Below are positions 2,081 to 53,383 of a stretch of DNA of 64,000 nt, piece by piece. A program made the position numbers and the translations under genes. Source of the DNA: Dicyema japonicum (lineage: Eukaryota > Dicyemida > Rhombozoa > Dicyemidae). Numbering within the stretch: position 1 is the first letter of the stretch; the number at the start of each line of letters is the position of its first letter. Under the pieces are notes generated by a model that ran no database searches, was not told the origin of the DNA, and worked only from the letters and a program-made list of their open reading frames with translations. The DNA lies in contig RDEW01000069.1 in assembly GCA_011109175.1 (NCBI GenBank), positions 102,184-166,183 of the forward strand, written 5' to 3'.

Positions 2081-2081
2081 T

Positions 2082-4063: not shown

Positions 4064-4074
4064 AAAATTTATTA

Positions 4075-14421: not shown

Positions 14422-15320
14422 ATGGCACGAACAAAACAAACTGCTAGAAAATCAACTGGAGCAAAAGTTCCAAGGACGAAAATGGTTCAAAAAGTGAGTA
14501 CCAAAGGATCTAAACGGGCGGCAGTTAAAGTTAGTAGCACAACACGTTCCATAAGAAGTCTCGACGATTATCAGGACATCTCACGTGTGGTCTGTGACAC
14601 AGCGGCCCACGTGGTGGAAGGACTCTTCATAAATAAGCCCACTATTGGACTATATTTTAGAGGAGTCCGAGGTATCGAGAAGCTCAGGAGAGTCGTTCGC
14701 GACTCGATCCTTCTGTCCTTCAGAGTAAACATGGGGATCGATGGCAGGGCTGCTTTCCACACTGTAGCGGACATCCCCACACAGCTAGCGGTTGATCAAG
14801 CTGTGCCTGCACCGAGGAGGATGGAGGTTGAGAGCAAGACTCAGCCTCCTGTAATGGATCCAAGGACCGAGGAAAACATCCCAGCACAGCTAGCGTTGAA
14901 CAAGCTGTGCCTGGGACGAAAAGGATGGAGGTTGAGAGCAAGACTCAGCCTCTTGAAATGAATCAAGGACCGAGAACCGAGGGCAGGGCTGAATCCGTCA
15001 CACAGCCAGCGGTCCAACAGGCTGTGCCTGCCCTCGACGAAGGAAGACAAGAAGACCGTCTCCCGATGACTGTAGGCTGGACTACAGTAGGGAGAAAGAG
15101 GAAGTCTGCGGTTTCTGCCAAACCGCAGAACGTGCGTGATTCGGGTCCAGAAACCGCAAAGTGCCCTAAAAAGCATTTTGCAGGCTCGAATCAATCCAGA
15201 GCGCACGTGCCTAAAGAGAAGAACAAACAACAGGTATTCGGGGGACTAACTACACTAGTTCGGCTAGAGGTGCCGAAGATAGGAGTGGTTAAACTCCTAT
15301 GTGGCATAGGTACTCTGGCT

Positions 15321-16791
15321 GGTTGTAGGAAAAAAAGTCAAGTGGAAAAAAGGTCAAGCGGAAAAAAAAGTCAAGTCCGTAAGCGAAAAAAAGTCAAGCG
15401 GAAAAAAAGTCAAGTTGTCTTTTTTTAGTTTATATCGCATTTTTGTGATACTACTAGCATCTTTTAATTTTTAAAAATTTTTTCAATACTTGACTTTTTT
15501 TCCGCTTGACTTTTTTTCCATTTTTGAAAATTTTTCCTTATAAATTTTCGAAATTTAGCGCAAAATGGAAAAAAAGTCAAGTCCGCTAACGAAATTACGG
15601 ACTTGACTTTTTTCCGCTTTGGTATAATCGCTTTGACTAAATCAATTTAAGAACTTCAAGGTAATAATAAAAAAAATATTTTTTATTATAAAATGAATAA
15701 AAATTAAATTAGGGCATCTGAATGGCCATGCTATTTCCCCTAACAATAGCCAACGAGATACGTTCTCGGAACCAACTAGTCTCTCGCAGATCCTTGGTCA
15801 CAGCTTGAATCATGGAGCCGATCTTACGAACCAACTCATCTGCTTGGGGGCCAAGGATTCATAATATAATAAAATTGACTTAACTTTTTTCGCTTTGGTT
15901 TAATCTTTTTGACCTTGACTTTTTTCGCTTTGGTTTAATCTTTTTGACTTAATCAATATACGGATTTTAATTCCTTTGGAAAAAGAATTTCAACAAGAAC
16001 AAATAAAAAACGATTGATACAAAAAAAAAACTTTTAAATATATTTCTGGATCGCCAGGACGGAAAAAAACAGTAGGAGAGGCCCTAAAACCAATTGCATG
16101 GAATATTAAATATTCTTTTGATTCACATTAAATAATCCCTTGATTCACGTTAAATAAAAATCATATGTTTATTTTTTTTAAAGCCTTTTCATGAGAGCCA
16201 TAGTATTTTATAGCTCCGCATAGGCAGGACACACACTTTATTTAAGTAAAGAACAGTTAATTTTAACTAATCGTAGAACCAAGGAATTATCTTCACTTCT
16301 TTTTTTCTTTTTCTTGTGTGAGTGTCCTTTCTAGACAATTTAGTTAAAAGTAGAAAAAATCATTTTTAGAATTTATTTCCACCACGTGTAGTTTTAGTTG
16401 TGGCGAGACATTGTAATTCATTAACATTAGCCAAAATTAACTATTTAAATAATTTGTTATTCTAAACTCGCTTACTTTAAAATGAAACGATCATGAATAA
16501 AAATCTTAATTTATAAACGGAAAAAAAGTCAAGTCCGTAATTTCGTTAACGGACTTAACTTTTTTTCCGTTTTGCGCTAAATTTCGAAAATTTATAAGGG
16601 AAAAATTTTCAAAAATGGAAAAAAAGTCAAGCGGAAAAAAAGTAAAGTATTGAAAAAATTTTTAAAAATTAAAAGATGCTAGTAGTATCACAAAAATGCG
16701 ATATAAACTAAAAAAAGACAACTTGACTTTTTTTCCGCTTGACTTTTTTTCCGCTTGACCTTTTTTCCCCTTGACTTTTTTTCCGCACTCC
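15321..16791. mobile_element. 1471-bp foldback DNA transposon (MULE-like), 9-bp target duplication
   Basis: Target duplication ACTCTGGCT at 15312-15320 and 16792-16800. Precise removal restores the gag sequence GTLATYAKGR seen in other copies. Termini are the same as the MITE at 14057-14320, and the outer 250-280 bp of each side form a long inverted repeat (compare 15414-15495 with the inverse of 16646-16727). I see no transposase. The interior holds captured host or transposon pieces, including an RT fragment (15711-15862) and a segment around 16234-16345 that recurs at 57520-57645. Confidence 0.8.
15711..15862 (-). pseudogene. Captured C-terminal RT-family fragment inside the DNA transposon
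   Basis: The minus strand reads DELVRKIGSMIQAVTKDLRE followed by RERISLAIVRGNSMAIQM, the extreme C-terminal QRI-IA--RGN block of the invertebrate RT family. The first 45 bp (in plus orientation) are almost identical to 2917-2960. Confidence 0.6.
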
Positions 16792-17558
16792 ACTCTGGCT
16801 ACCTATGCGAAAGGAAGGATCGTCAGACGAGGAGAATCCCACTTGTTGGTGGGATTCAGAAATGACGTGGACGCCTCAGCTTTTGAAGCTGAGGTGAATA
16901 AGAAGGTTCCTTTTGGGCCCGGGGCACATAACATGTCTCGGGTCATCCCCAAGGTACACGACTCGATTGTACTAGTCTTCGGAGTCCCTCTGGACTTTGT
17001 TGATGAGGATGTACTCGAGTACATCAAAAAGGACTACCCCACGGCGCACAAGATCGAGCGCTTCAAGAGTGGGAGTCAGAGACTAAGGACTCTCAAGGTC
17101 TGGATCAGGTCCGGAGCAGAAGCTGAGAGGATCTGCCTTGAGAAGTTAAAGATAGGTTACTTTAGATTTGGTGTGGCCCGAGAGCGACCGGTAGCAATCC
17201 AGTGCTACAGATGCCAGGGATTCGGCCACACCAGCTCCCGCTGCACTTATAAAGAGAAGTGCCTAAATTGCGGGGGTCCACATTCACGGAAGGCCTGTCA
17301 ATCCAGAGTCAGGTCTCTCAAGTGCGTGAACTGTGGCTTGGAGGGACACAGGGCGAGCCATACCAAGTGCCCCCTGTATCAGGAGGCGACGGAGAAGGTA
17401 CCACAGGGGAGAAGGCAGGCGCCCTCCTCTGGAGTGGTCAGTGATGTAAGCGCTGTCCACCGCGTGGTAAGTCGATACTGTAGCAGCACAGGTTCAACGT
17501 TCCCTAATGCGCTTAGGGACATTGCGCTCTGCGATAGGAAGGTAAGTGCGGCGAAGTG

Positions 17559-18621
17559 ATGTTACGCATCATTTCAGTTAATGTTAGGTCCCTCCGGAGA
17601 AGAAGGAAGGCCATCGAGGATCTTCTGGACTCTTTGGAGGTGGACATCTTGGTCCTTAACGAGACCAAGAGTAAGGATACGGCTGCTGCAGGCTTTAAAG
17701 GCTATACTAGTTGTCATCTCTTGTGGAATGACACACATAGAGGTTCGGGCACTAGTATCTATTGGAGGACGAGTCTAGCAGCAGTCGTCCAAGGTATTTC
17801 AAATTGTCCTCATTGCGAGTTAATATTATTACGAATCAGATTATCTAGCTTTAGCGTTGTTATAGGGGCAATGTATGCCAAGCAGTTGTGGTTGTGTAAG
17901 GACCACATTAAAACTGTATTTGACATTCATCCCCATTGCGTTATTTTTGGTGATCTGAATGCTAAGCATTCAGATTTTGGCTGTTTTGTTAATAATAGGG
18001 CTGGATCAGCACTCCGGGAATTAGCTTGGAATCTTGGGCTCTCAGTCACTACATCGACGGACCCCAATCACAAAGATACACGAGGAGGAGAGGACTTCTT
18101 GGGTATGGCCGTAGCCTCCCCTTCATTAATTGGTATGCTCTCTGTACCTCGTGTTCTTAGGGACATCGGAAGCGATCACCGTCCCCTACTCACCGAGCTT
18201 CACGAACCTGTTCGACCTCAGGCCCCAATTGGCTATGACTTGGGCTCTGGCACTTGGGATAACCTGGAGTCGTTCATGGATAGAAAACTCCCTTCTCTCA
18301 AAGGGCAAGTTTGTAGTGAAGCGGACGTGGAGGAATTGGATGCCACCCTGGGTGGTATCCTCGAGGAATACATGCGGACTAACTTCCGGTTACGTCCGCA
18401 AGGTGGAGGCTCCGCACGAATTCCAGGCCTGATTTTAAGTAAGATAACACTTAGAAAGAGGTACCTGCGGTTCAAAGCGAGGAGCACGTATGAAGAGAAC
18501 CGGATCTTCTACCAGAAGAAGGTAACACCTTACGAAGGGAAATCCGGAAGGCGCTCGTCGACTATCAGAGCAACAAATGGAGGAGGGCCTGCGAGAGGGT
18601 GAACCCCGCATGGCCGGACTT
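17559..18621 (+). pseudogene. Retrotransposon ORF2, endonuclease domain, truncated
   Basis: ATG 17559 overlaps the ORF1 stop by one base (TGATG). The frame encodes an APE-type endonuclease: ISVNVRSL (Asn), ILVLNETK (Glu), GSGTSIYWR, VIFGDLNAKHSDFG and DIGSDHRPLL (catalytic Asp/His). A 1-nt loss near 18523 shifts the frame just before the 18621 deletion joint. The RT domain is absent. Confidence 0.85.
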
Positions 18622-19807
18622 CTAAGATAATCCAATCCTTTTCGCCTAATTGAAAATGTTTTTCGAGACGCAATGTCGTTTTAAATTGTTAATTCACGGG
18701 AATTTCTAATCATATGCAGTTTCTATCAACTAGCTAAAAATACCTTTAGCCCATAAAACCCAACTTTAATGTAACAAACTAACCAAATAAATCTCAAGTA
18801 CAAAAATAAGACAAATTTTTAATTTTGACACTGTTTAAAAAACAAAAAAACTATATCATTTTCTTTTAATGTAACAAATTTTTAATTTTTGACACTGTTT
18901 AAAAAACAAAAAAACTATTTCAATTTGATTTTAATATAAAAAATTAAATAAATCGCTGTCGAAAAAATTGGGGTCAAAAATCCAGGTTTTTGCGGCTGAT
19001 TGAACTCAAACCAAGTTCATTCAACGCGTCTTGCTTTTGCGCGTTAAAATATGAAATCAGATTGAAAATTGGACGCACGTGGGCGGAGATTTGATAATTG
19101 ATTATTTTTTAGTTTTTAGAAATTAAATTTGTCTATTATTCTTGTTTATGTAAGCCTTGTTAACCTTTAACTAAATTATTTATTTTTTTGATTACCTAAA
19201 TGCTACATTCTAAGATAGTTCTAGATATTGACTTAGTCAGCTAGGCTTACAGTTGGTTAGTAATAATGTAACTTTTTTTTCAAAATAACTCTTGTAAGTG
19301 ACTGATTATTGTATTTAAGAGACTGAATCGGTATATAGAGGGGAGCAACTTTCTACGACCTAATCAATTTGGATTCCGTCCGGGAAGATCATGTGGAGAT
19401 TGTATCCACTCACTAAACTACGAAATTATAAATACATTGGAGAAGAAATTGATTTGTCTAATTAAATTTGTCTACTATTCTTGTTTATGTAAGTCTTGTT
19501 ATCCTTTAACTAAATTAATTTAGTTTTTTGATTATCCAATTGCAAATCCATTCCAAGATAGTTCTTGACTTGTCAGCTAGGGTTACAATAGGTTAGTAAT
19601 AACCTAACTTTTTTCATGATAACTTTTGTAAGTAATTAAGATTTAATTATATCAATAGGGTTTTACTCCTTTGGAGTAATTTTCCGATAGATATCTTGAC
19701 AAAATAAAGGCAGATGTCTTAATACTAAGGGATCAAATGGATTTTCTGGTTAGCAAGTACTATAGTTATAAAAGTCAATTAAAGTAAAGGTTTATTTAAT
19801 AAAATTG
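18622..19807. other. Histone array spacer, unit 1 (H3-H2A), with fossil RT segment
   Basis: AT-rich spacer repeated in every unit. It includes a local duplication of a poly-A-rich block (about 18800 and 18870). Bases 19320-19455 encode, in one plus frame, RLNRYIEG, FLRPNQFGFRPGRSCGDCIH and SLNYEIINTLEKKL. This is an RT-domain motif block from a retrotransposon related to those in the window. There is no other gene. Confidence 0.7.
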
Positions 19808-20170: not shown

Positions 20171-20183
20171 TTTATTGAAAATT

Positions 20184-22956
20184 CAAATCAAATCAAATCA
20201 AATTTATTCCAAAGTAAGTAAGGAGTCAATTAAAGGGATTTTAACGTGTCCGCCTTTGCGGCCTGGACACTTCACACGTATCCCATCTCCATTGTAGTCG
20301 TCCATTTAGTACGTATTGAGAAGCTGGTTTCCCAACCTTACTTCGATATCTATTTTACCGGCCTGACAAGGCTATTCTCTTCCTCGGAGAGGCTTTCATG
20401 TAATTTCCTCCCCAGAGATATTTTTATCGCCGCTCGCCTTGTTTTCTCCAGGCGAGCGAGAATCCTTTCTCTCGAGGGAGTATAATACCATCCCTCGCAT
20501 CCATATATCAGTCTTGGGAGAATCACAGTTTGGAAGATATAGAGCATTGTATCGGCGTCCAGCATAAGTTTTCTGGAGCAGAACATCGCTTGAACGGCCT
20601 TCTTTCTCCGCTCCTCGATGTCCTTCCGGTACGATCCTCTTCCATCCACTGCAATCCCCAGGTATTTCAGGCTAGAGACTCTCGGTATCCGTAGCGTATA
20701 CATCTCTCTCTGGTGTCGATCCAGCCTGCATATTCGCAAGTAACTGGATTTTTCTGTGGATAGTTTCATCCCTCTCCTATCGCACCATGTCCGAACTCTG
20801 TCGACAAAAGCCCCGATTCGTCGCTCAGAGATGTAGGCCTTCAGAGATGAGTCTAGGATTAAGATGTCATCCGCATAAATCATCAGCTTGGTCCTAACGT
20901 TTTGTGGAGAAGGAAAATCTTCCATAAATACGTTGAATAATAGAGGGCTTAGAATAGACCCTGCGGCACTCCCTTTTAAACAATATATCTTCGGAATATC
21001 TTCCACCAACCACCACGTTTGATATTCCTCCCAGTCAACAGGTTCTTCAGCCATAGGAACATTTGTCTTGAATTTTTGATCGAACCAGTTGACAGAATAG
21101 GCCTCGTGCCATACACTGTCGAAAGCCTTAGATGTCAAGGCAGACAAGGCTCAACTGGCTCCTCTTCTCAAAAGCATTTGCAATCTCATAGTTTAGAGAG
21201 TAATGCAATTACCACACGATCTCCCTGGCCGAAAACCCCATTGGTAACACTGTAGAAAATTAATATTTTCTATGTACTGGTTCAATTTCTTGAAAATAAT
21301 CCGTTCCATAATCTTCGATGTAGAACAGATAAGGCTTATAGGCCTATAACTAAGAGGATCTTTCCTCGACTTTCCAGGTTTAGGAATCATCTTTACAATT
21401 GAGTGCTTCCATAGTGAAGGGGAATGTCCGAGCTTGAAACTTGCGTTATACATCTTTTGTAGAACAGACAGAAATTCATCGGATCCTTCTTTAAACATAG
21501 TCATCGGAATGCTATCAAAACCAGGAGCCTTGTTTTTGCACTCCCGTATAGCAGTCTTGACTTCTGCCAATGTGATTTCCTCTACCATACTATTCAGATC
21601 GTCTATGGAGTAATCCATAGAGCTAGATATATCTTCTGAGAATTTTTCGGATATAATACTGACTGGGTCTACTCCCTGTATGTTTTCTAATTGTTTCCTG
21701 AATACTGACGGTACTCTGTCCAGGGGAATTGTTCTTCCATCTTGATCCGCCAGTACAATGTTCTTTGCTCTCATGTTTTTGTTAGTCAGTCTGGAGTACA
21801 ATTTCCACAAGCAAGGATTCTTAAGTGCACTTTCAAGGCTGCTTTCCTAACTTGGTTTTCTGAATACTACTTCCAAGCTCTCTGTAGAACTTTTTGGATA
21901 GCATCAATATTATTTTTCAAAGTTATACTGTCCCACATGTCCACACATCGTCTGTGCTTCGCCTTCAGAGTATTCCTCTCGCGAATAAGTCCCGAATAGA
22001 AGGAGGGCAGGACTGATTCGTTTTCGGAAGGATTTTTGAGTAAATCTTCTTTGCATATAATCGCAGATACATCGTAATAGTATTGGATAAATCTTGGTTG
22101 AAAGAATCCAACTCATTATGTGTAGAAAAGGAATAATTAATCTTCATTAACATACTCTTCGATAAATAATGACGATAATGTTCCCAGTCTACCGACGAGG
22201 TATCATAATACAGAAAAATGTCTTCAATAATATCCGGTTCAAGATTTATAGTCATCTCCATAGGGATATGGTCACTCCCTATATCCCAGAGTAACCTTGG
22301 CCTGTTTACATGGTCTAGTAGTTGTGGAGATACTAAGGCCAATCCCAGCATATCACCCCCGTAGTATGAGAAATGGTTAGGTTCTTCGGTCGTTAAGACT
22401 TCGACTCCAATTTCCCCGACCAAATCTGCTAGTAGTTGACCGTCCCTGTTGTTTCCATAACATCCATAGGTCCTGTTCTTGGCGTTCAAATATCCCACCA
22501 GGATCGACATTGGGTTTCTTTCGAAGAACTCGACAATTTTCACAGAGGACCAGGCCAAGTCCTTAGAATATAGCCCTCCCACGGTTATCCACGTTCCACC
22601 ACATTGCACGTCGACAGACACGAATTCCGAATCGTCGGCCGATATAATGCAGTCGTTTCGAGTTTGCAATAGTTTATGAAAGAAGATTGAGGTTCCTGTT
22701 CCAGCAACTGCTCCATCTTTCCATGGAATGTCCACTGAGTCATATCCTTCCAGAATATAATGCCTTCCTTCTCGAATCTTCGTCTCGTTGACTACCAAGA
22801 CATCTGCCTTGGCAGTCCTCATAAGTAGTGCTAGTTCATCATGCCTTTTCACCAAGGAGCGAGCATTCACCAGCACTAACTTTAGGATTCTTTTCAGATT
22901 TCTTTTTGGTGGCCCGGGCTCTCCATGGCCAGGTCCACCATTTCCCGTAAATCCAC
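20184..22956 (-). mobile_element. Related non-LTR retrotransposon inserted in the H2A leader
   Basis: A 2.77-kb insertion lies between the H2A start (GAAAATT at 20177-20183) and the promoter box (TCCGGAAAAAA at 22957). It is oriented like H2A, and 36 bp of native leader are missing. The 3' end in element sense is a (TTTGA)n tail abutting the H2A leader. It encodes an endonuclease and RT but no ORF1, so it is 5'-truncated. The endonuclease resembles the histone-fused element block for block (NARSL, VVNETK, GTGTSIFF, DIGSDH), so the two are cousins. Confidence 0.85.
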
Positions 22957-22984
22957 TCCGGAAAAAAACTTTTAGAATTAGCAT
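20350..22984 (-). pseudogene. Endonuclease-RT ORF of the H2A-leader element
   Basis: The frame starts at ATG 22984, inside the H2A/H2B promoter, and is open across the insertion joint (MLILKVFFRSG...). It covers the APE endonuclease to about 21965. RT blocks follow in shifted frames: ECKNKAPGFDSIPMTMFKEG, KPGKSRKDPLSYRPISLI, WGFRPGRSCGNCI, KAFDSVWHEAY, GSILSPLLFN, YADDILIL and SLKYLGIAVD. At least three frame changes and a scrambled stretch before GSILSPLLFN show it is inactive. There is no recognisable RNase H. Confidence 0.8.
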
Positions 22985-27187: not shown

Positions 27188-28727
27188 ATGTCAGGACGTG
27201 GTAAAGGTGGAAAAGGAGGAAAGTCAGTGCAAAGCGATTTAAAAAGATCCTGATCGATAACGTAAGAAGTTTGGACGATTATGAGGACATCTCACGTGTG
27301 GTCTGCGACACAGCGGCCCACGTGGTACAAGGACTCTTCGAAAATAAGCCCTCTATTGGATTATATTTTAGAGGAGTCCGAGGAGTCGAGAAGCTCAGAA
27401 GGGTCGTTCGCGACTCGATCCTTCTGTCGTTCAGAGTCAATATGGGGATCGATGGCAGGGCTGCTTTCCACACTGCAGCGGACATCCCCACACAGCAAGC
27501 GGTTGATCAAGCTGTGCCTGCACCGAGGAGGATGGAGGTTGAGAGCAAGACTCAGCCTCTTGAAATGAATCAAGGACCGAGAACCGAGGGCAGGGCTGAA
27601 TCCGTCACACAGCCGCGGTCCAACAGGCTGTGCCTGCCCTCGACGAAGGAAGACAAGAGGACCGTCTCCCAATGACTGTAGGCTGGACTACAGTAGGGAG
27701 AAAGAGGAAGTCTGCGGTTTCTGCCAAACCGCAGAACGTGCGTGATTCGGGTCCAGAAACCGCAAAGTGCCCTAAAAAGCATTTTGCAGGCTCGAATCAA
27801 TCCAGAGCGCACGTGCCGAAAGAAAAGAAGAAAGAACAGGTATTCGGAGGACTAACTACACTAGTTCGGCTAGAGGTGCCGAAGATGGGAGTGGTTAAAC
27901 TCCTAAGTGGCATAGGTACTCTGGCTACCTATGCGAAAGGAAGGATCGTCAGACGAGGAGAATCCCACTTGTTGGTGGGATTCAGAAATGACGTGGACGC
28001 CTCAGCTTTTGAAGCTGAGGTGAATAAGAAGGTTCCTTTTGGGCCCGGGGCACATAACATGTCTCGGGTCATCCCCAAGGTACACGACTCGATTGTACTA
28101 GTCTTCGGAGTCCTCTGGACTTTGTTGATGAGGATGTACTCGAGTACATCAAAAAGGACTACCCCACGGCGCACAAGATCGAGCGCTTCAAGAGTGGGAG
28201 TCAGAGATTAAGGACTCTCAAGGTCTGGATCAGGTCCGGAGCAGAAGCTGAAAGGATCTGCCTTGAGAAGTTAAAGATAGGTTACTTTAGATTTGGTGTG
28301 GCCCGAGAGCGACCGGTAGCAATCCAGTGCTACAGATGCCAGGGATTCGGCCACACCAGCTCCCGCTGCACTTAATAAAGAGAAGTGCCTAAATTGCGGG
28401 GGTCCACATTCGCGGAAGGCTTGCCAAACAAGTGGCAAGTCTCTCAAGTGCGTGAACTGTGGCGCAAAAGGACACAGGGCGAGCCATACCAAGTGCCCCC
28501 TGTATCAGGAGGCGACGGAGAAGGTACCACAGGGGAGAAGGCAGGCGCCCTCCTCTGGAATGGTCAGTGATGTAGGCACTATCCATCGGATGGTGAGTAA
28601 CTATTGCAATGCCACTGGGGCTTCGCTCCAAACGGCACTTAGGGATATCGCGTTATCTCATAGGTTAAATAATGCGTCGAAGGGATGCTCAACATCGTCT
28701 TCGAAACAGGAGGACTTTAGAATATGA
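27188..28727 (+). pseudogene. H4::gag chimeric ORF1 (half-LINE copy 1), frameshifted
   Basis: H4 codons 1-25 (to ATCGATAAC) are joined to the gag body GTAAGAAGTTTGGACGATTA. A G is missing in AGTCAGTGC within the H4 tail, so the fusion is out of frame as written. Other 1-nt losses lie near 27613 and 28112, and a 1-nt gain near 28373. Only one copy of the gag internal repeat remains. The C-terminus is the half-LINE type ending in EDFRI (TGA 28725-28727) rather than the ORF1 end of the complete element. Three CCHC knuckles are present. Confidence 0.8.
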
Positions 28728-28866
28728 CGAAGACTTTTATAAAACGAAGGAGGCACGGGGAAGACGAATGTGATGGCACGAAAACGCTGCCGCAAGGCGG
28801 TGAAAGGGCCTTTAGTTAGTTCTTCCCTAACTTAACATTTGTTTTTTTGCCTAATAAAGATTTTTC
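27259..28866 (+). mobile_element. Half-LINE copy 1 (ORF1 only) in H4
   Basis: It contains gag and the shared 3' UTR (ACGCTGCCGCAAGGCGGTG ... CCTAATAAAGATTTTTCC) but nothing of ORF2. The junction sequence before the 3' UTR is the same in copies 2-4. The H4 segment from just before the ATG to about codon 25 is repeated after the element (28880 on), a target duplication of about 80 bp. Confidence 0.85.
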
Positions 28867-28886
28867 CGTTTTTCTTCCGCAAATCA

Positions 28887-34262: not shown

Positions 34263-34276
34263 GATCCCGCAAAGCA

Positions 34277-36636: not shown

Positions 36637-36999
36637 TTAAGTGGATGCTGGTTTTGCGGGCTCAGCACTTTTGCGACAGATGTATCTTCCGCAAGAGATT
36701 ATTGCATTTTGGGTAAGTTCTTTTAATTCGTCATCGGCATTGATTGCGACAGACAGGTGACAAGGTTTGATCCTTCGCTTTGCAGCCTTGAGTGCAGTAT
36801 TACCACAAAGTTCCAGCACTTCAGCACATAGATACTCCATTACAGCTCCAACGTAGATGGCAGCACCAACTGCAACTCGCATTCTGGTCTCACTTCTCAA
36901 GCATCTATGAATTCGACCAACTGGAAATTGCAAGCCTGCTCTAACTGATTTGCTTTTCGCTTTTGTACGTACTTTTCCACCTTTGCCGCGAGTAGACAT
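36637..36999 (-). CDS. H2A: Histone H2A, unit 4
   Basis: Intact, 120 residues, unit 3-6 subtype. Confidence 0.95.
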   Translation of the reverse strand: MSTRGKGGKVRTKAKSKSVRAGLQFPVGRIHRCLRSETRMRVAVGAAIYVGAVMEYLCAEVLELCGNTALKAAKRRIKPCHLSVAINADDELKELTQNAIISCGRYICRKSAEPAKPAST

Positions 37000-37161
37000 T
37001 TTATTGAAAATTTTGAATTTTTTCGTACTTATGTTTTTAAATTGTGCTTCCGGAAAAAACTTTTAAATTAGCATAAGAAAATCAATACTTTCTAAAGTTT
37101 ATTCTGGAAGCACAATTTGAAAACATAAGTACGAAAAAATTCAAAATTTTTGATTTAGACT
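37000..37161. promoter_or_regulatory. Divergent H2A/H2B promoter, unit 4
   Basis: Inverted-repeat layout. The H2B leader end TTTTTGATTTAGACT is the exact leader found in front of the H2B::gag fusion at 38479. Confidence 0.6.
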
Positions 37162-37529
37162 ATGGTTCAAAAAGTTAGCACAAAAGGATCTAAAAGGCTG
37201 CAGTTAAAGTTAGTAGCACAACACGTGCCTTACGAAAAAAGAAAAAGCGATCCCAAAACTATCATTTGTACATTCTGAGGATTTTGAAATCTGTCCACAC
37301 TGATTTGGGGATGTCAAAGAAAGCTATGATGGCTATGGACAGCTTTACTTTTGACATTTACGAAAAAATCAAGAACGAAGCTTGCAATCTAGTTCAGCAT
37401 AATAGCAAAGCTACTATCACATCAAGAGAAATTCAAACAGCAGTACGCTTGATTTTGCCTGGAGAATTGGCAAAGCATGCTATTACCGAAGGGGCAAAGG
37501 CGGTCACCAAGTATACCAATACTAAGTGA
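37162..37529 (+). pseudogene. H2B: Histone H2B, unit 4, 1-nt deletion
   Basis: 368 bp. The tail reads TCTAAAAGGCTGCAG where intact copies have TCTAAACGGGCTGCAG, which shifts the frame after codon 10. From 37266 on it is identical to intact H2B. Confidence 0.85.
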
Positions 37530-37715
37530 TTTTTACTTGATATAATAAAGAAAACTTGTTTTCTAACCATTTTTTTCCTTACATAAAAATAGCCCACGTG
37601 TCATAATCTTAACAAAAGAATGTTTTTTATTAATTTTAACGCAATAAGAACGTTTTTTATTATTTTAACGCTATTTAAAAAGTCCGTTTTAGTGTGTTTT
37701 CCAATTTTCACTTTA

Positions 37716-37822
37716 ATATCGATTTGTGCTTCCGTGAAAAACTTTTAATATTATCGATTTGTGCTTCGGCGAAAAATTTTTGCGTCGTCAATTTATAAAC
37801 GCCAAATTTGGAGCGCAAAGCA
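37716..37822 (+). promoter_or_regulatory. H4 promoter, unit 4
   Basis: Twin boxes plus TATAAA. It serves an uninterrupted H4. Confidence 0.5.
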
Positions 37823-38362: not shown

Positions 38363-38460
38363 AAATTGTGCTTCCGGAAAAAAATTACTTGCTCTCTCGT
38401 ATTGTTGCAAAATTGCGTGTGCTTCCGCGAAAAATTTAAGCGTACGTTAGTATTAATACA
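38363..38460 (+). promoter_or_regulatory. H3 promoter, unit 4, captured by an H2B::gag fusion
   Basis: The native H3 promoter runs through both boxes to GTATTAATACA, then switches at about 38460 to an H2B leader (AAATTTTTGATTTAGACT) and the fused ORF. Transcription from an H3 promoter would therefore make an H2B-started gag. Confidence 0.6.
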
Positions 38461-40296
38461 AAATTTTTGATTTAGACTATGGTTCAAAAAGTTAGCACTA
38501 AAGGATCTAAACGGGCTGCAGTTAAAGTTAGTAGCACAACAAGTTCCGTAAGAAGTTTGGACGATTACCAGGACATCTCACGTGTGGTCTGTGATACAGC
38601 GGCCCACGTGGTAAATGGACTCTTCGAAAATAAGCCCTCTATTGGATTATATTTTAGAGGAGTCCGAGGAGTCGAGAAGCTCAGAAGGGTCGTTCGCGAC
38701 TCGATCCTTCTGTCGTTCAGAGTCAATATGGGGATCGATGGCAGGGCTGCTTTCCACGCTGCAGCGGACATCCCCACACAGCAAGCGGTTGATCAAGCTG
38801 TGCCTGCACCGAGGAGGATGGAGGTTGAGAGCAAGACTCAGCCTCCTATAATGGATCAAGGGACATGGAAAAAGACCAGGCCTACTTCATACACATCAGA
38901 GGACATCCCCACACAGCAAGCGGTTGAACAAGCTGTGCCTGCACCGAGGAGGATGGAGGTTGAGAGCAAGACTCAGCCTCTTGAAATGAATCAAGGACCG
39001 AGAACCGAGGGCAGGGCTGAATCCGTCACACAGCCAGCGGTCCAACAGGCTGTGCCTGCCCTCGACGAAGTGCGACAAGAGGACCATCTCCCAATGACTG
39101 TAGGCTGGACTACAGTAGGGAGAAAGAGGAAGTCTGCGGTTTCTGCCAAACCGCAGAACGTGCGTGATTCGGGTCCAGAAACCGCAAAGTGCCCTAAAAA
39201 GCATTTTGCAGGCTCGAATCAATCCAGAGCGCACGTGCCGAAAGAAAAGAAGAAAGAACAGGTATTCGGAGGACTAACTACACTAGTTCGGCTAGAGGTG
39301 CCGAAGATGGGAGTGGTTAAACTCCTAAGTGGCATAGGTACACTGGCTACCTATGCGAAAGGAAGGATCGTCAGACGAGGAGAATCCCACTTGTTGGTGG
39401 GATTCAGAAATGACGTGGACGCCTCAGCTTTTGAAGCTGAGGTGAATAAGAAGGTTCCTTTTGGGCCCGGGGCACATAACATGTCTCGGGTCATCCCCAA
39501 GGTACACGACTCGATTGTACTAGTCTTCGGAGTCCCTCTGGACTTTGTTGATGAGGATGTACTCGAGTACATCAAAAAGGACTACCCACGGCGCACAAGA
39601 TCGAGCGCTTCAAGAGTGGGAGTCAGAGACTAAGGACTCTCAAGGTCTGGATCAGGTCCGGAGCAGAAGCTGAAAGGATCTGCCTTGAGAAGTTAAAGAT
39701 AGGTTACTTTAGATTTGGTGTGGCCCGAGAGCGACCGGTAGCAATCCAGTGCTACAGATGCCAGGGATTCGGCCACACCAGCTCCCGCTGCACTTATAAA
39801 GAGAAGTGCCTAAATTGCGGGGGTCCACATTCGCGGAAGACTTGCCAAACAAGTGGCAAGTCTCTCAAGTGCGTGAACTGTGGCGCGGAGGGACACAGGG
39901 CGAGCCATACCAAGTGCCCCCTGTATCAGGAGGCGACGGAGAAGGTACCACAGGGGAGAAGGCAGGCGCCCTCCTCTGGAGTGGTCAGTGATGTAGGCAC
40001 TATCCATCGGATGGTGAGTAACTATTGCAATGCCACTGGGGCTTCGCTCCAAACGGCACTTAGGGATATAGCGTTATCTCATAGGTTAAATAATGCGTCG
40101 AAGGGATGCTCAACATCGTCTTCGGAACAGGAGGACTTTAGAATATGACGAAGACTTTTATAAAACGAAGGAGGCACGGGGAAGACGAATGTGATGGCAC
40201 GAAAACGCTGCCGCAAGGCGGTGAAAGGGCCTTTAGTTAGTTCTTCCCTGATTACTTAACATTTGTTTTTTTGCCTAATAAAGATTTTTCCGTTCC
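38461..40296 (+). mobile_element. Half-LINE copy 3 with transduced H2B leader, H3 upstream region
   Basis: Begins with H2B leader and tail sequence and ends with the shared 3' UTR and a GTTCCGTTCCG tail. The H2B tail segment (TTAGACTATGG to AGCACAA) is present before this element and again at its end, where it starts the next element. Copy 3 therefore most simply inserted into the H2B-derived part of the larger element, creating a target duplication of about 75 bp. Confidence 0.8.
38479..40148 (+). pseudogene. H2B::gag chimeric ORF1 (half-LINE copy 3)
   Basis: In frame from the H2B ATG through 21 or so H2B codons into gag ([16 protein letters not shown]). It is open for 384 codons, with two copies of the DIPTQQAV-QAVPAPRRMEVE repeat. 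One C is missing in GACTACCCACGG near 39589, which shifts the frame before the knuckles. The rest is open from 39720 to 40148 (CCHC x3, ending EDFRI). With that base it would be a full-length half-LINE gag. Confidence 0.85.
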
Positions 40297-40309
40297 GTTC
40301 CGTTAGACT

Positions 40310-41938
40310 ATGGTTCAAAAAGTTAGCACAAAAGGATCTAAACGGGCTGCAGTTAAAGTTAGTAGCACAAAAAGTTCCGTAAGAAGTTTGGACGATTACC
40401 AGGACATCTCACGTGTGGTCTGTGATACAGCGGCCCACGTGGTAAATGGACTCTTCGAAAATAAGCCCTCTATTGGATTATATTTTAGAGGAGTCCGAGG
40501 AGTCGAGAAGCTCAGAAGGGTCGTTCGCGACTCGATCCTTCTGTCCTTCCGAATAAACATGGGGATCGATGGCAGGGCTGCTTTCCACGCTGCAGCGGAC
40601 ATCCCCACACAGCAAGCGGTTGATCAAGCTGTGCCTGCACCGAGGAGGATGGAGGTTGAGAGCAAGACTCAGCCTCCTATAATGGATCAAGGGAAATGGA
40701 AAAAGACCAGGCCTACTTCATACACATCAGAGGACATCCCCGCACAGCTAGCGGTTGAACAAGCTGTGCCTGGGACGAGGAGGATGGAGGTTGAGAGCAA
40801 GACTCAGCCTCTTGAAATGAATCAAGGACCGAGAACAGAGGGCAGGGTTGAATCCGTCACACAGCCAGCGGTCCAACAGGCTGTGCCTGCCCTCGACGAA
40901 GGAAAACAAGAGGACCGTCTCCCGATGACTGTAGGCTGGACTACAGTAGGGAGAAAGAGGAAGTCTGCGGTTTCTGCCAAACCGCAGAACGTGCGTGATT
41001 CGGGTCCAGAAACCGCAAAGTGCCCTAAAAAGCATTTTGCAGGCTCGAATCAATCCAGAGCGCACGTGCCGAAAGAAAAGAAGAAAGAACAGGTATTCGG
41101 AGGGCTAACTACACTAGTTCGGCTAGAGGTGCCGAAGATGGGAGTGGTTAAACTCCTAAGTGGCATAAGTAGTCTGGCTACCTATGCGAAAGGAAGGGTC
41201 GTCAGACGAGGAGAATCCCACTTGTTGGTGGGATTCAGAAATGACGTGGACGCCTCAGCTTTTGAAGCTGAGGTGAATAAGAAGGTTCCTTTGGGCCCGG
41301 GGCACATAACATGTCTCGGGGTCATCCCCAAGGTACACGACTCGATTGTACTAGTCTTCGGAGTCCCTCTGGACTTTGTTGATGAGGATGTACTCGAGTA
41401 CATCAAAAAGGACTACCCCACGGCGCACAAGATCGAGCGCTTCAAGAGTGGGAGTCAGAGACTAAGGACTCTCAAGGTCTGGATCAGGTCCGGAGCAGAA
41501 GCTGAGAGGATCTGCCTTGAGAAGTTAAAGATAGGTTACTTTAGATTTGGTGTGGCCCGAGAGCGACCGGTAGCAATCCAGTGCTACAGATGCCAGGGAT
41601 TCGGCCACACCAGCTCCCGCTGCACTTATAAAGAGAAGTGCCTAAATTGCGGGGGTCCACATTCACGGAAGGCCTGTCAATCCAGAGTCAGGTCTCTCAA
41701 GTGCGTGAACTGTGGCTTGGAGGGACACAGGGCGAGCCATACCAAGTGCCCCCTGTATCAGGAGGCGACGGAGAAGGTACCACAGGGGAGAAGGCAGGCG
41801 CCCTCCTCTGGAGTGGTCAGTGATGTAAGCGCTGTCCACCGCGTGGTAAGTCGATACTGTAGCAGCACAGGTTCAACGTTCCCTAATGCGCTTAGGGACA
41901 TTGCGCTCTGCGATAGGAAGGTAAGTGCGGCGAAGTGA
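40310..41938 (+). CDS. H2B::gag fusion protein (ORF1), full length
   Basis: 542 residues, uninterrupted. Residues 1-22 or so are the H2B tail. Then comes a gag-specific domain ([34 protein letters not shown]). Two copies of a roughly 45-residue repeat (DIP-QQAV-QAVP---RRMEVESKTQP) plus a third partial follow, then a basic linker. Next are an RRM-like region (VFGVPLDFVDEDVLEYIKKD, LRTLKVWIRSGAEAERI) and three CCHC knuckles at about 430-490. It is expected to bind element RNA and form the particle with ORF2; the H2B tail could add nuclear or chromatin targeting (inference). The gag part has no Met near its start, so initiation depends on the histone ATG. Compensating indels near 41292-41323 change a few residues. 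The stop TGA overlaps the ORF2 ATG. Confidence 0.9.
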   Translation: MVQKVSTKGSKRAAVKVSSTKSSVRSLDDYQDISRVVCDTAAHVVNGLFENKPSIGLYFRGVRGVEKLRRVVRDSILLSFRINMGIDGRAAFHAAADIPTQQAVDQAVPAPRRMEVESKTQPPIMDQGKWKKTRPTSYTSEDIPAQLAVEQAVPGTRRMEVESKTQPLEMNQGPRTEGRVESVTQPAVQQAVPALDEGKQEDRLPMTVGWTTVGRKRKSAVSAKPQNVRDSGPETAKCPKKHFAGSNQSRAHVPKEKKKEQVFGGLTTLVRLEVPKMGVVKLLSGISSLATYAKGRVVRRGESHLLVGFRNDVDASAFEAEVNKKVPLGPGHITCLGVIPKVHDSIVLVFGVPLDFVDEDVLEYIKKDYPTAHKIERFKSGSQRLRTLKVWIRSGAEAERICLEKLKIGYFRFGVARERPVAIQCYRCQGFGHTSSRCTYKEKCLNCGGPHSRKACQSRVRSLKCVNCGLEGHRASHTKCPLYQEATEKVPQGRRQAPSSGVVSDVSAVHRVVSRYCSSTGSTFPNALRDIALCDRKVSAAK

Positions 41939-44519
41939 TGTTACGCATCATTTCAGTTAATGTTAGGTCCCTCCGGAGAAGAAGGAAGGCCATCGAGGAT
42001 CTTCTGGACTCTTTGGAGGTGGACATCTTGGTCCTTAACGAGACCAAGAGTAAGGATACGGCTGCTGCAGGCTTTAAAGGCTATACTAGTTGTCATCTCT
42101 TGTGGAATGACACACATAGAGGTTCGGGCACTAGTATCTATTGGAGGACGAGTCTAGCAGCAGTCGTCCAAGGTATTGCAAATTGTCCTCATTGCGAGCT
42201 AATATTATTACGAATCAGGTTATCTGGCTTTAGCGTTGTTATAGGGGCAATGTATGCCAAGCAGTTGTGGTTGTGTAAGGACCACATTAAAACTGTATTT
42301 GACATTCATCCCCATTGCGTTATTTTTGGTGATCTGAATGCTAAGCATTCAGATTTTGGCTGTTTTGTTAATAATAGGGCTGGATCAGCACTCCGGGAAT
42401 TAGCTTGGAATCTTGGGCTCTCAGTCACTACATCGACGGACCCCAATCACAAAGATACACGAGGAGGAGAGGACTTCTTGGGTATGGCCGTAGCCTCCCC
42501 TTCATTAATTGGTATGCTCTCTGTACCTCGTGTTCTTAGGGACATCGGAAGCGATCACCGTCCCCTACTCACTGAGCTTCACGAACCTGTTCGACCTCAG
42601 GCCCCAATTGGCTATGACTTGGGCTCTGGCACTTGGGATAACCTGGAGTCGTTCATGGATAGAAAACTCCCTTCTCTCAAAGGGCAAGTTTGTAGTGAAG
42701 CGGACGTGGAGGAATTGGATGCCACCCTGGGTGGTATCCTCGAGGAATACATGCGGACTAACTTCCGGTTACGTCCGCAAGGTGGAGGCTCCGCACGAAT
42801 TCCAGGCCTGATTTTAAGTAAGATAACACTTAGAAAGAGGTACCTGCGGTTCAAAGCGAGGAGCACGTATGAAGAGAACCGGATCTTCTACCAGAAGAAG
42901 GTAAACACCTTACGAAGGGAAATCCGGAAGGCGCTTGTTGACTATCAGAGCAACAAATGGAGGAGGGCCTGCGAGAGGGTGAACCCCGCATGGCCGGACT
43001 TCTGGAGTCAGCTGAAGCGCCTGTCGGGCAGAGGGGAAGAGTCATCTGCGCGTACCCTGTGTCGTGCGGACGGTTCTAAAACCTCTGACCCGACTGAAAT
43101 AGCGAGCATCTTTGCAGGTAGCTTTAGGGCAGTTACTGCAGTTCGACCAGAGAACTTTGTCGAGTTAACAGCTCGACAAAGTATAGAGGACGTCATCTCT
43201 GCGGAGAGACGGAAGTTGAGCCACTCTCGGGAGATCCCGAAGGTGGCATGCATCACCGAGGAGGAGGTCCGGGCCGCGATAAGTAAATCGAAGAACAACG
43301 CACCGGGCCAAGACAAGATCCCCATGGCCCTTTTCAAGAAAGGACCTGGAAGTCTCGTGAACACCTTGGTAAGATTGTACAACGGTAGTACAGGTTGGGT
43401 TACGTTCCTAGGCGTTGGAAGGAAGCGGAACTGGTTTTTGTAAGGAAACCAGGAAAACCTCCTGAAGACCCTAGTAGCTACCGCCCTATAAGCTTGTTAC
43501 CTGCCGTTGCTAAAATCTTAGAGAGAGTGATACACCAGAGGTTAACCCAGGAATGCATAATAAAAGACACCCTCTCGGACCTTCAGATGGGATTCCGTGA
43601 GGGGCGTTCCTGTGGGGACTGCCTCTGGAGGTTGAGCTCTCAGATTCGTGAAAGGAGCAAGAAGCAATGCACAGCCGCGTTGTTCCTGGATGTGGAGAGG
43701 GCGTTCGACTCGGTCTGGCATGACGGCCTCCGTTGCGCCCTCGCAGAAGGAGGAATATCTCTGGAGCTAAGGAGCTGGTTATCAAGCTTCTTAGAGGATC
43801 GGATGAACTATGTAAGGCATAAAGGTTGCCGATCTAGTTTGTTTAGATCTAACCGGGGAGTTCCACAAGGGTCGGTTTTGAGCCCCACCCTTTTCAACGT
43901 TTACATGTCTACACTTCCCCACCCAGCCAATGTGAGGACGGAGATGGCTATCTATGCGGACGACATAGTACTCTGGGATCACTCGTGGAAACCAGATGTA
44001 GCGTGTCGGAGGATTCAAGTAGCTGTCAATGAAATCATACGCTGGTGTGGGAGCAGAGGACTTAGGCTGAGACCTGAGAAATGTAAGTTATTAGTTTTTG
44101 GCCGCCCTAAGCGGTCTAATAATTTAATACCTAGAGTAACCATCTATGGGGTACCTATAGAGGTTACTGGGCGGACGAGCTACCTTGGAGTGACATTCAA
44201 CTCCAAGTGTAGTTTCCAGGAGCACACCGCCCTCGTTAAGAGGCGGGCTGTGCAAAGATTAGGAGCGTTGAGGGCTTTTCAGCTGAGTCGCGATGCCTGG
44301 GCCAAAGTGTTCAACGCCATGGTGCTGCCTATGCTCACCTATGGTGCGCACTCCTGGTATTGTAGTGAGGAACGCGAAAAGTGCCTCACCAACTTGAGGA
44401 AGGTTCGGCGGCGGGCAATACGGTATTCTATAGGATTGTCTTATAGAGCGCCGCTGCCCGAAAGAGGATATCCGATTTCAGGACCCGAGGAAGTGATTAA
44501 AAAGATCTTAAAAAATTAA
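41938..44519 (+). pseudogene. Endonuclease-reverse transcriptase (ORF2), one frameshift
   Basis: Starts at ATG 41938 in TGATG. The N-terminal APE endonuclease runs to residue 225 or so (NVRSL, LVLNETK, FGDLNAKH, GSDHRPL). RT follows with NNAPGQDKIPMALFKKG, KPPEDPSSYRPISLLPAVAK, MGFREGRSCGDCL, ALFLDVERAFDSVWH, GVPQGSVLSPTLFN, the YADD-type catalytic motif and TSYLGVTFNSK. The C-terminal part is YGAHSWYCSEER...NLRKVRRRAI. There is no RNase H. A missing C at 43389 (GGTAGTACAGG, against GGTAGCTACAGG at 59312) splits the frame into 41938-43443 and 43395-44519. The last ten codons differ slightly. Otherwise it looks recently active. Confidence 0.88.
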
Positions 44520-44649
44520 AGAAGGAGGCACGGGGAAGACGAATGGATGCACGAAAACGCTGCCGCAAGGCGGTGAAAGGGCCTTAGTTAGTTCTTCCCT
44601 ATTACTTAACATTTGTTTTTTGCCTAATAAAGATTTTTCCTTCCTTTCA

Positions 44650-47575: not shown

Positions 47576-49248
47576 ATGTCAGGACGTGGTAAAGGTGGAA
47601 AAGGAGGAAAGTCAGGTGCAAAGCGATTCAAAAAGATCCTGATCGATAACATTCAGGGGATCACAACACATTCCGTACGAAATCTTGAGGATTATGAGGA
47701 CATCTCACGTGTGGTCTGCGACACAGCGGCCCACGTGGTACAAGGACTCTTCGAAAATAAGCCCTCTATTGGATTATATTTTAGAGGAGTCCGAGGAGTA
47801 GAGAAGCTCAGAAGGGTCGTTTCGCGACTCGATCCTTCTGTCATTCAGAGTTAATATGGGGATCGATGGCAGGGCTGCTTTCCACACTGCAGCGGACATC
47901 CCCACACAGCAAGCGGTTGATCAAGCTGTGCCTGCACCGAGGAGGAGGATGGAGGTTGAGAGCAAGACTCAGCCTCCTGTAATGGATCCAAGGACCGAGG
48001 AAAACATCCCAGCACAGCTAGCGGTTGAACAAGCTGTGCCTGGGACGAGGAGGATGGATGTTGAGAGCAAGACTCAGCCTCTTGAAAAGAATCAAGGACC
48101 GAGAACCGAGGGCAGGGCTGAATCCGTCACACAACCAGCGGTCCAACAGGCTGTGCCTGCCCTCGACGAAGTGCGACAAGAGGACCATCTCCCGATGACT
48201 GTAGGCTGGACTACAGTAGGGAGAAAGAGGAAGTCTGCGGTTTCTGCCAAACCGCAGAACGTGCGTGATTCGGGTCCAGAAACCGCAAAGTGCCCTAAAA
48301 GCATTTTTGCAGGCTCGAATCAATCCAGAGCGCACGTGCCGAAAGAAAAGAAGAAAGAACAGGTATTCGGAGGACTAACTACACTAGTTCGGCTAGAGGT
48401 GCCGAAGATGGGAGTGGTTAAACTCCTAAGTGGCATAGGTACACTGGCTACCTATGCGAAAGAAGGATCGTCAGACGAGGAGAATCCCACTTGTTGGTGG
48501 GATTCAGAAATGACGTGGACGCCTCAGCTTTTGAAGCTGAGGTGAATAAGAAGGTTCCTTTTGGGCCCGGGGCACATAACATGTCTCGGGTCATCCCCAA
48601 GGTACACGACTCGATTGTACTAGTCTTCGGAGTCCCTCTGGACTTTGTTGATGAGGATGTACTCGAGTACATCAAAAAGGACTACCCCACGGCGCACAAG
48701 ATCGAGCGCTTCAAGAGTGGGAGTCAGAGACTAAGGACTCTCAAGGTCTGGATCAGGTCCGGAGCGGAAGCTGAGAGGATCTGCCTTGAGAAGTTAAAGA
48801 TAGGTTACTTTAGATTTGGTGTGGCCCGAGAGCGACCGGTAGCAATCCAGTGCTACAGATGCCAGGGATTCGGCCACACCAGCTCCCGCTGCACTTATAA
48901 AGAGAAGTGCCTAAATTGCGGGGGTCCACATTCGCGGAAGGCTTGCCAAACAAGTGGCAAGTCTCTCAAATGCGTGAACTGTGGCGCAGAAGGACACAGG
49001 GCGAGCCATACCAAGTGCCCCCTGTATCAGGAGGCGACGGAGAAGGTACCACAGGGGAGAAGGCAGGCGCCCTCCTCTGGAATGGTCAGTGATGTAGGCA
49101 CTATCCATCGGATGGTGAGTAACTATTGCAATGCCACTGGGGCTTCGCTCCAAACGGCACTTAGGGATATCGCGTTATCTCATAGGTTAAATAATGCGTC
49201 GAAGGGATGCTCAACATCGTCTTCGAAACAGGAGGACTTTAGAATATG
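47576..49248 (+). pseudogene. H4::gag chimeric ORF1 (half-LINE copy 4)
   Basis: In frame across the joint: H4 codons 1-29 (to IQGI), then [20 protein letters not shown] of gag. An extra T near 47820 (GTCGTTTCGCGAC) shifts the frame after about 80 residues. The gag body is open again from 47856, with one more shift near 48300 and another near 48463 before the knuckle region (48491-49249 open, ending EDFRI). It shows that the H4 tail fusion is designed, or selected, to be in frame. Confidence 0.82.
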
Positions 49249-49396
49249 ACGAAGACTTTTATAAAACGAAGGAGGCACGGGGAAGACGAATGTGATGGCA
49301 CGAAAAACGCTGCGCAAGGCGGTGAAAGGGCCTTTAGTTAGTTCTTCCCTGATTACTTAACATTTGTTTTTTGCCTAATAAAGATTTTTCCATTCC
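47667..49396 (+). mobile_element. Half-LINE copy 4 in H4
   Basis: ORF1 only with the shared 3' UTR. The right flank begins at TTTTTCCGCGAAAAACC, about 60 bp upstream of the next H4 ATG. The target duplication is therefore about 150 bp, the longest here, and includes the TATAAA and one promoter-box remnant. Confidence 0.85.
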
Positions 49397-49459
49397 ATTT
49401 TTCCGCGAAAAACCTTTTGCGTCGTCAATTTATAAACGCCAAATTTGGAGCGCAAAGCA

Positions 49460-52361: not shown

Positions 52362-52728
52362 ATGGTTCAAAAAGTGAGTACTAAAGGATCTAAACGGCGG
52401 CAGTTAAAGTTAGCAGCACCACACGTGCCTTACGAAAAAAGAAAAAGCGATCCCAAAACTATCATTTGTACATTCTGAGGATTTTGAAATCTGTCCACAC
52501 TGATTTGGGGATGTCAAAGAAAGCTATGATGGCTATGGACAGCTTTACTTTTGACATTTACGAAAAAATCAAGAACGAAGCTTGCAATCTAGTCCAGCAT
52601 AATAGCAAAGCTACTATCACATCAGAGAAATTCAAACAGCAGTACGCTTGATTTTGCCTGGAGAATTAGCAAAGCATGCTATTACCGAAGGGGCAAAGGC
52701 GGTCACCAAGTATACCAATACTAAGTGA
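52362..52728 (+). pseudogene. H2B: Histone H2B, unit 6, two 1-nt deletions
   Basis: 367 bp. One G is lost in AAACGGCGGCAG near 52396, and one A in ACATCAGAGAAATT near 52623. Sequence is otherwise normal to KYTNTK. Confidence 0.85.
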
Positions 52729-52911
52729 TTTTTACTTGATATAATAAAGAAAACTTGTTTTCTAACATTTTTTTTTACATAAAAATAGCCCACGTGTCAT
52801 AATCTTAACAAAAGAATGTTTTTTATTAATTTTAACGCAATAAGAACGTTTTTTATTAATTTTAACGCTATTTAAAAAGTTCGTTTTAGTGTGTTTTCCA
52901 ATTTTCACTTT

Positions 52912-53019
52912 AATATCGATTTGTGCTTCCGTGAAAAACTTTTAATATTATCGATTTGTGCTTCGGCGAAAAATTTTTGCGTCGTCAATTTATAAACGCC
53001 AAATTTGGAGCGCAAAGCA
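52912..53019 (+). promoter_or_regulatory. H4 promoter, unit 6, driving an H4::gag fusion
   Basis: Twin boxes and TATAAA as in the other units. Confidence 0.5.
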
Positions 53020-53383
53020 ATGTCTGGACGTGGTAAAGGTGGAAAAGGAGGAAAGTCAGGTGCAAAGCGATTCAAAAAGATCCTGATCGATAACATTCAG
53101 GGGATCACAAGTAACGAAGTTTGGAGATTATCAGGACATCTCACGTGTGGTCTGTGATACAGCGGCCACGTGGTAAAGGACTCTTCGAAAATAAGCCTCT
53201 ATTGGATTATATTTTAGAGGAGTCCGAGGAGTAGAGAAGCTCAGAAGGGTCGTTCGCGACTCGATCCTTCTGTCGTTCAGAGTCAATATGGGGATCGATG
53301 GCAGGGCTGCTTTCCACACTGCAGCGGACATCCCCACACAGCAAGCGGTTGATCAAGCTGTGCCTGCACAGGAGGATGGAGGT
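53020..53383 (+). pseudogene. H4::gag chimeric ORF1, partial, runs into a gap
   Basis: H4 codons 1-30 to the CACAA target are joined to GTAACGAAGTTTGGAGATTA. Single-base losses around the joint and near 53164 and 53195 put it out of frame. The gag region is visible up to the first internal repeat, then an N run begins. Confidence 0.75.

Follow-up and report, generated by a model that had tools for sequence, protein, structure and literature searches.

A stretch of 64,000 nucleotides from Dicyema japonicum (contig RDEW01000069.1, positions 102,184 to 166,183; the window) carries an array of core histone genes, and within this array seven gag open reading frames (ORFs) of a non-LTR (long terminal repeat) retrotransposon start inside a histone gene, at exactly the positions given by an earlier sequence-only reading (14422, 27188, 32443, 38479, 40310, 47576 and 53020). 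The feature extends beyond the array: 19 of the 27 gag loci detected in the genome have a histone tail, seven in the window and 12 on 11 other contigs. The sequences point, with a probability of about 0.78, to an APE (apurinic/apyrimidinic endonuclease)-type lineage whose copies insert at the start regions of histone genes, use the promoter and AUG found there and carry the histone tail along as N-terminus of the Gag protein. This supports the sequence-only reading, which had the element live on histone promoters and ATGs; H2A tails, dispersed copies, tail replacement, 3' ends in sense orientation at histone starts and a second gag family are additions to it.

Histone tails on gag in the array and across the genome

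The genome scanned has 64.67 Mb on 191 contigs, and the histone array of the window lies on contig C157. It consists of six units of ~3.55 kb with H4 and H3 on the plus strand, H2A on the minus strand and H2B on the plus strand (copies and a reference unit are listed in Table 1). The TATA box of H4 begins 29 bases 5' of the ATG, and four of the six full H4 promoter regions in the array lead into gag and not into H4: at 27188, 32443, 47576 and 53020 the H4 promoter sequence runs unbroken into gag. The fusions are beyond chance, because the window copies match the histone unit over 75-100 bases with 88-99% identity (BLAST) and because tails with different joints are present on 11 other contigs. 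The H4 tail reaches to codon 25 at 27188 and to codon 29-30 at 32443, 47576 and 53020, and the H2B tail to about codon 20-25 at 38479 and 40310; at 14422, H3 codons 1-18 are followed by TK, the H2B tail and gag. An example of the junction between tail and Gag reads ...SSTTSSVRSLDDYQ.

The distance from the histone ATG to a fixed anchor in gag is a multiple of three at 14422, 38479, 40310 and 47576, the four joints that had been proposed to be in frame. The raw frame is not kept at 27188 and 32443, where it is lost within the histone part, nor at 53020, where the shift is in the joint region. As was also proposed before, Met is lacking near the start of the gag body; the first one is found at about residue 84 (NMGIDG).

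The genome was probed with one gag start and four histone starts, and the 5' sides of the matches were read. The 27 gag loci consist of 25 loci from 34 gag-start matches (nine second matches to the same copy were merged) and of two loci, on C112 and C23, that were found via their tails; all these numbers are lower bounds. Outside the window, H4 tails are present at L004 and L010 (both C34), L015 (C116), L020 (C126) and L062 (C23), H2B tails at L008 (C115), L013 (C2), L064 (C62), L065 (C187), L066 (C112) and L068 (C124), and an H2A tail at L014 (C45); among the 19 tailed loci, an H3 tail is found in copy A only. L008 has two consecutive H2B starts, both in frame. Some of the dispersed tailed copies are much diverged, for example L020 with 73% identity and an in-frame H4 tail, and because such diverged copies on many contigs carry histone tails, it is very unlikely that the fusions are assembly artefacts. 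Copies elsewhere with a conserved non-histone ORF1 start were sought and none was found: the 12 outside loci begin with an H4, H2B or H2A tail and, four loci aside (L016-L019, see below), all loci that reach the gag start begin in a histone tail.

The distance between histone start and gag anchor is a multiple of three in 13 of the 19 tailed loci, 12 of which have no stop. At a frame chance of 1/3, the probability of 13 or more is 0.0019 and that of 12 or more is 0.0074. By reading, 11 distinct joints can be told apart: H2B-gag; H4 into an H2B remnant (E and H4#2); H4 in B; H4 in G; H4 in L015, L004 and L010; H4 in L020; H2A in L014; H3-H2B in A; H2B-H2B in L008; H4 in L062; and H2B in the second gag family. 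All but the joint of G are in frame (10/11; P 1.3e-4 if independent); this joint count is a judgement made after the data were seen, with B and H4#2 scored as in frame although changes in their tails now break it, and with the second family included despite a stop in the tail of L069.

Between H4 tail and gag, an H2B-like remnant (TTRALRN, TTHSVRN, SNTTRG) is present in E, H4#2, L004, L010, L015 and L062, and several of these joints are marked by CACAA, a word common to H4 and H2B. The remnants therefore indicate tail replacement: the front of an H2B-gag element seems to have given way to that of H4. Gag itself has dN/dS ratios (non-synonymous to synonymous substitution rates) of 0.32-0.71 (copy D versus ten other copies, plus four other pairs; 28-353 codons, few in some comparisons). 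Since H3-like genes outside the array (L103 on C138, L105 on C159) have introns of 22 and 25 bases, a mini-intron at the joint was considered (GTAAG...CAG, 24 bases in some copies); it was rejected, as A, L013, L020 and L014 lack the GT.

Element ends, insertion sites and structure

In the dispersed copies of this first gag family, the similarity to histone genes begins within about 7 bases of the ATG, and inside the ATG in L004 and L010. With TATA at -29, H4 RNA is expected to start close to the ATG, and the 5' ends fit copies made from RNA begun at histone start sites; they likewise fit transcription from the histone promoter, without proving it. A spliced leader as common source of the 5' ends was rejected: comparison of the flanks by eye revealed no shared sequence upstream of the tails.

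At the 3' side, 25 of 29 matches reach near the element end and their flanks were read; the partial matches L050, L052, L053 and L054 were dropped. Seven of these 25 ends adjoin the region upstream of a histone ATG, in sense orientation. Copies B and H4#2 meet the H4 5' untranslated region (UTR) 8 bases before the ATGs at 28887 and 34277; copy E meets the H4 promoter about 59 bases 5' of the ATG at 49460, and the right-hand H4 retains its TATA box; copy C adjoins H2B sequence, with the ATG of copy D (40310) 5-7 bases further on. The remaining three lie about 26 to 37 bases upstream of H3: one at 44676, where the 3' UTR of copy D and AATAAA are followed by H3 5' UTR and H3 gene, one at 14422 and one on C118. 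The random expectation is about 0.001 of 25 (a rough estimate, with about 40 histone starts of 60 bases each). These seven ends represent six different junctions, some of which may have been multiplied by array duplication, and with offsets from about -5 to about -59 across H4, H2B and H3 they do not mark one fixed site of a multicopy gene. An element-like 3' end is also found just upstream of an H4 pseudogene on C119 (L061). A general preference for gene starts was rejected: in only three of the 18 non-histone 3' flanks does the first ORF exceed the 95th percentile of control positions (54 codons), and two of these three are a duplicated site on C34.

Copies C and D sit together in the start region of an H3 gene, between unit positions 641 and 653, where ~12 H3 bases are lost. 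Copy C follows the H3 promoter (unit position 641), and the arrangement looks like the insertion of an RNA that had started at H2B. Full-length H4 gene sequence is present again 3' of copies B, H4#2 and E, and the H4 5' end is thus present twice, in duplications of about 83, 98 and 150 bases if the tail is counted in; among these right-hand H4 copies, only that at 34277 is listed as an open H4 ORF of 102 amino acids. Both a long target duplication and the joining of histone-started RNA would be compatible with these flanks.

ORF2, which in copy D starts at 41938 with a TGATG overlap to the gag ORF and has its endonuclease-reverse transcriptase (EN-RT) part in two overlapping frames up to 44519, has an APE-like endonuclease (PF03372, 1.4e-13; PF14529, 9e-10) and a reverse transcriptase (PF00078, 1.4e-40) with the RTs of R2 and LINE-1 (long interspersed nuclear element 1) as best solved relatives. 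Gag has a zinc knuckle (PF15288), giving the layout of a CCHC ORF1 followed by an EN-RT ORF2. Many of the 25 3' ends have AATAAA followed by GTTCC-like or CATT-like repeats, and the 5' end (histone tail) and the 3' end, as read, are unlike each other. On these sequence features, we classify the element as an APE-type non-LTR retrotransposon. The only relative of its EN at E 0.001 or better is 44% identical and recorded as Octopus sinensis, in a contig of 43 kb; among solved structures the EN has no match at 0.001 and eight weak matches up to E 10, the best being AP-lyase and exodeoxyribonuclease III-like chains. An Rfam scan of the window gave no match at gathering thresholds.

The copies at 27188, 32443, 38479 and 47576 lack EN-RT from about element position 1631 (the match of 32443 stops at 1542) and probably form a non-autonomous sublineage that codes for Gag. 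One gag-only copy outside the array, on C45 (L014/L040), shows the same internal loss of EN-RT as B, H4#2, C and E. In copy A, the ORF from 14422 is open for 179 amino acids and gag is broken by a foreign insert bordered by repeats (about 15320-16794). Inserts that break gag and have repeats resembling GGAAAAAAAGTCAAG / CTTGACTTTTTTTCCG are present in copy A and in the copies on C2, C45 and C62; they are perhaps another mobile element.

A different EN-RT element, F, has its 3' end upstream of H2A; this end carries (GATTT)n, and the H2A-H2B promoter region has lost about 37 bases at this place. For animal proteins, the histones of the array (window 23739-53020) seem highly diverged. One protein recorded for Octopus sinensis shares 89% identity with H2B along 66% of the H2B length, while the remaining 118 foreign relatives (among 120 listed of 7412) are only 43-67% identical. 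D. japonicum was sequenced from Octopus sinensis (67.5 Mb assembly, ~65 Mb estimated, 36.7% GC, mean intron 38 bp, according to the available text of PMC6736024), and dicyemid material may sit within octopus sequence records.

Table 1. Element copies and related features in the window
Feature	Position	Strand	Description
Copy A	14390..18623	+	H3 5' UTR and codons 1-18 (14390-14476), H2B start from 14482, gag; EN part to 18623
Copy B	27188..28878	+	H4 tail to codon 25 (27188-27261) and gag-only element; frame lost inside tail
Copy H4#2	32443..34268	+	H4 tail (about 90 bases) and gag-only element; frame lost inside tail
Copy C	38455..40302	+	18-24 bases of H2B 5' UTR and H2B tail (ATG 38479), in frame with gag-only element
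Copy D	40303..44648	+	H2B tail (ATG 40310) in frame with gag; ORF of 542 amino acids, 40310-41938
Copy E	47576..49400	+	H4 tail (47576-47666) in frame with gag-only element
Copy G	53020..53383	+	H4 tail (53020-53110) and gag, not in frame with each other; copy enters a run of 516 Ns
Further EN-RT part	57640..60442	+	98.5% identical to positions 1403-4205 of D
Gag piece L016	60880..61091	+	subfamily without histone tail; from gag-start search
Reference histone unit without element	34277..37822	+	H4 34277-34585 (+), H3 34960-35370 (+), H2A 36637-36999 (-), H2B from 37162 (+)
Element F	20183..22957	-	different EN-RT element without gag ORF; 3' end lies 13-14 bases before the ATG of H2A (20170), sense to H2A

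A second gag family with H2B-like starts

Three loci (L067, L069 and L070) have an H2B tail on a different gag (TTMKASSSSRPPGS...): in tblastn comparisons of the first gag with 0.9 kb pieces of these loci, the match is confined to the H2B tail and the zinc-knuckle part. Of 80 candidates for a probe from L069, 40 gave scored matches. The starts of 35 copies were read, namely 32 of the 40 together with L067 and L069 (which are also in the 40) and L070 (which is not); in six of the 40, which were left unread, the match begins far inside the probe. Nine of the 35 starts (L067, L069, L070, L071, L072, L073, L079, L096 and L101) are closer to the H2B start than all 200 shuffles and the other 26 are not. 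L073 reads MVQKTNTKRSAVKPVKTTK and is open from its MV start, as is L096. In the second family (L067, L069, L070 and L071-L102), other copies have a basic start, for example MVIARGKRTTTK; starts such as MVKKTNTK, MVIARGKR and similar have no detectable similarity to H2B at the DNA level.

Alternative explanations and relation to known elements

From this arrangement we infer promoter use, translation from the histone ATG, a function of the tail and a mechanism of joining. Copies of the element would land in sense about 5 to 60 bases upstream of a histone ATG, and the histone start region with the first 18-30 codons would come to precede the element. The histone promoter would then drive the element, and gag, having no start codon of its own, would be read from the histone ATG as a fusion of histone tail and Gag. 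The tailed RNA would serve as template for the next copy, so that the tail travels with the element; a tail would be swapped (H2B to H4, or H2B to H3 plus H2B) if a copy inserts at a different histone gene and its 5' joint falls within the tail of that gene. Joining could occur by a long target-site duplication or by joining of the histone-started RNA. The tail probably supplies Gag with a signal for nuclear import and chromatin binding, and the histone promoter would supply S-phase expression.

Several observations weigh against this reading. Eight gag loci have no recognised tail: L016-L019 reach the gag start without one (their upstream flank is common to all four, and they count as one duplicated event), L009 and L012 are cut inside gag, and the gag pieces on C47 and C120 are too decayed on the 5' side to judge. 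Six of the 19 tailed loci are now out of frame and one more has a stop; two of the 13 counted as in frame have the histone start codon replaced, by ATA in L062 and by GTG in L004. The tails have pN 0.033 and pS 0.158 (non-synonymous and synonymous differences, pooled over 13 tails), which partly reflects constraint on the host genes, and only two of the nine H2B-like copies of the second family (L096 and L073) are open from the MV start. Six of the seven histone-sited 3' ends are in the C157 array and one is on C118, and shared ancestry is possible in part. The left and right H4 copies of H4#2 differ at two positions. Insertion specificity is not strict, because 18 of the 25 3' ends are away from histone genes and because none of the five dispersed copies with both flanks (L013/L037, L014/L040, L004/L032, L010/L038 and L009/L043) has a clear target-site duplication. 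L017/L042, a candidate for a sixth two-ended copy, was rejected: these are really two neighbouring elements, and the long match is the stretch between them.

The fusions could instead be dead chimeras that arose when the reverse transcriptase left the element RNA for abundant histone mRNAs, with the in-frame joints being accidental. The microhomology at the joints, with CACAA common to H4 and the H2B-gag joint, is in line with such template jumps, and an H4 start of 64 bases within the apparent endonuclease gene of another element, without gag (L063, C126:310633-310696), could be a chimera of this type. LINE chimeras of that kind are known in Magnaporthe: in the WEIRD/MGL chimeras, as far as described in the available part of PMC2104539, the 5' part of another transcript is likewise joined to a LINE in reverse transcription, but at 28 different LINE sites, whereas in Dicyema the joint falls on the gag start in several diverged lineages and is mostly in frame. 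The four histone-start probes found tails at the gag start, where all 19 tailed gag loci have their joint, and only one elsewhere (L063); tails from other genes were sought only via the gag-start search. Moreover, the frame is kept more often than by chance, gag has no other nearby start codon, and template jumps do not predict 3' ends at histone genes. We consider this explanation unlikely.

Slightly less probable still is that the tails are mere long target-site duplications from insertion into histone genes and are not used in translation. B, H4#2 and E each have the same H4 5' region on their two sides, and B-left and B-right have one base change in common that is absent from the other H4 copies of the array, though it is also present in L004, L010 and L015; R9 of rotifers makes a very long duplication, to judge from a title cited in PMC5035012, and is a precedent for what one of the two joining models needs. 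R9 differs in having rDNA as its target. We know of no protein fusion for R9 of rotifers. Against tails as mere duplications stand the frame bias and the lack of another gag start; and because the tail is present in dispersed copies that have no histone gene at their other end, the tail would have been inside the mobile RNA. Unequal crossing-over or gene conversion between an old insertion and the histone genes of the array, without any tendency of the element itself, would explain the mixed variants among the array H4 copies and the loss of ~12 bases at the C-D insertion into H3. This possibility is very improbable and largely refuted by the twelve tailed loci, whose various joints are spread over 11 other contigs; in the flanks read (1.5 kb for the loci tested, some shorter), only L008 on C115 adjoins other sequence of the histone unit.

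Borrowing of histone starts by the element, the reading that we prefer, has partial parallels. Transposons can use host promoters and target host genes, and some target-specific non-LTR retrotransposons depend on host-gene transcription. U6-L1 of mammals is a LINE chimera formed by template jump. HeT-A of Drosophila has gag-only copies beside EN-RT copies and a Gag central to targeting, as here, but is telomeric, contains no histone sequence and borrows no start codon. In chromodomain chromoviruses a chromatin-related module directs the element, as we propose for the histone tail; these are, however, LTR elements with a C-terminal integrase module and not with an interchangeable N-terminal tail from histone genes. 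Like R1, R2, TRAS/SART, SLACS/CRE and Utopia, the present element parasitises multicopy host genes, and it resembles R1-clade and other target-specific elements in its APE endonuclease and RT, its CCHC gag and the stop-start overlap of its ORFs. A CCHC ORF1 with an EN-RT ORF2 is also true of jockey and I and is thus not decisive for R1. The targets named in the available parts of PMC4640811 and PMC5035012 are rRNA, tRNA, U2 snRNA and miniexon genes, telomeric repeats and microsatellites; here, in contrast, insertion is at the start regions of histone genes, whose coding start is taken into Gag.

A search of the literature on retrotransposons and histone genes, tails, promoters or target lists, on template switching and on dicyemids found no such element among the matches listed (subscription papers, preprints and Repbase were outside the search). 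To our knowledge, there is no transposon with a structural protein that is begun by, and fused to, interchangeable pieces of core histones. The word 'histone' is absent from the main texts of PMC4640811 and PMC5035012 in their available parts, and both 'histone' and 'transpos' are absent from the available text of PMC6736024.

We lean, with only modest confidence, towards a broader view: a life cycle without own promoter, 5' UTR or start codon, in which all three, together with an interchangeable N-terminal targeting module of Gag, would be taken serially from the four core histone genes, Gag would go where histones are and be made when they are, and more than one gag family would have adopted this way of life. 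If true, expression and nuclear import of the element, and perhaps its choice of target, would be coupled to chromatin assembly, Gag N-termini would turn over through repeated capture of host coding starts, and the tails would provide a natural test of which histone-tail sequences are sufficient for nuclear import.

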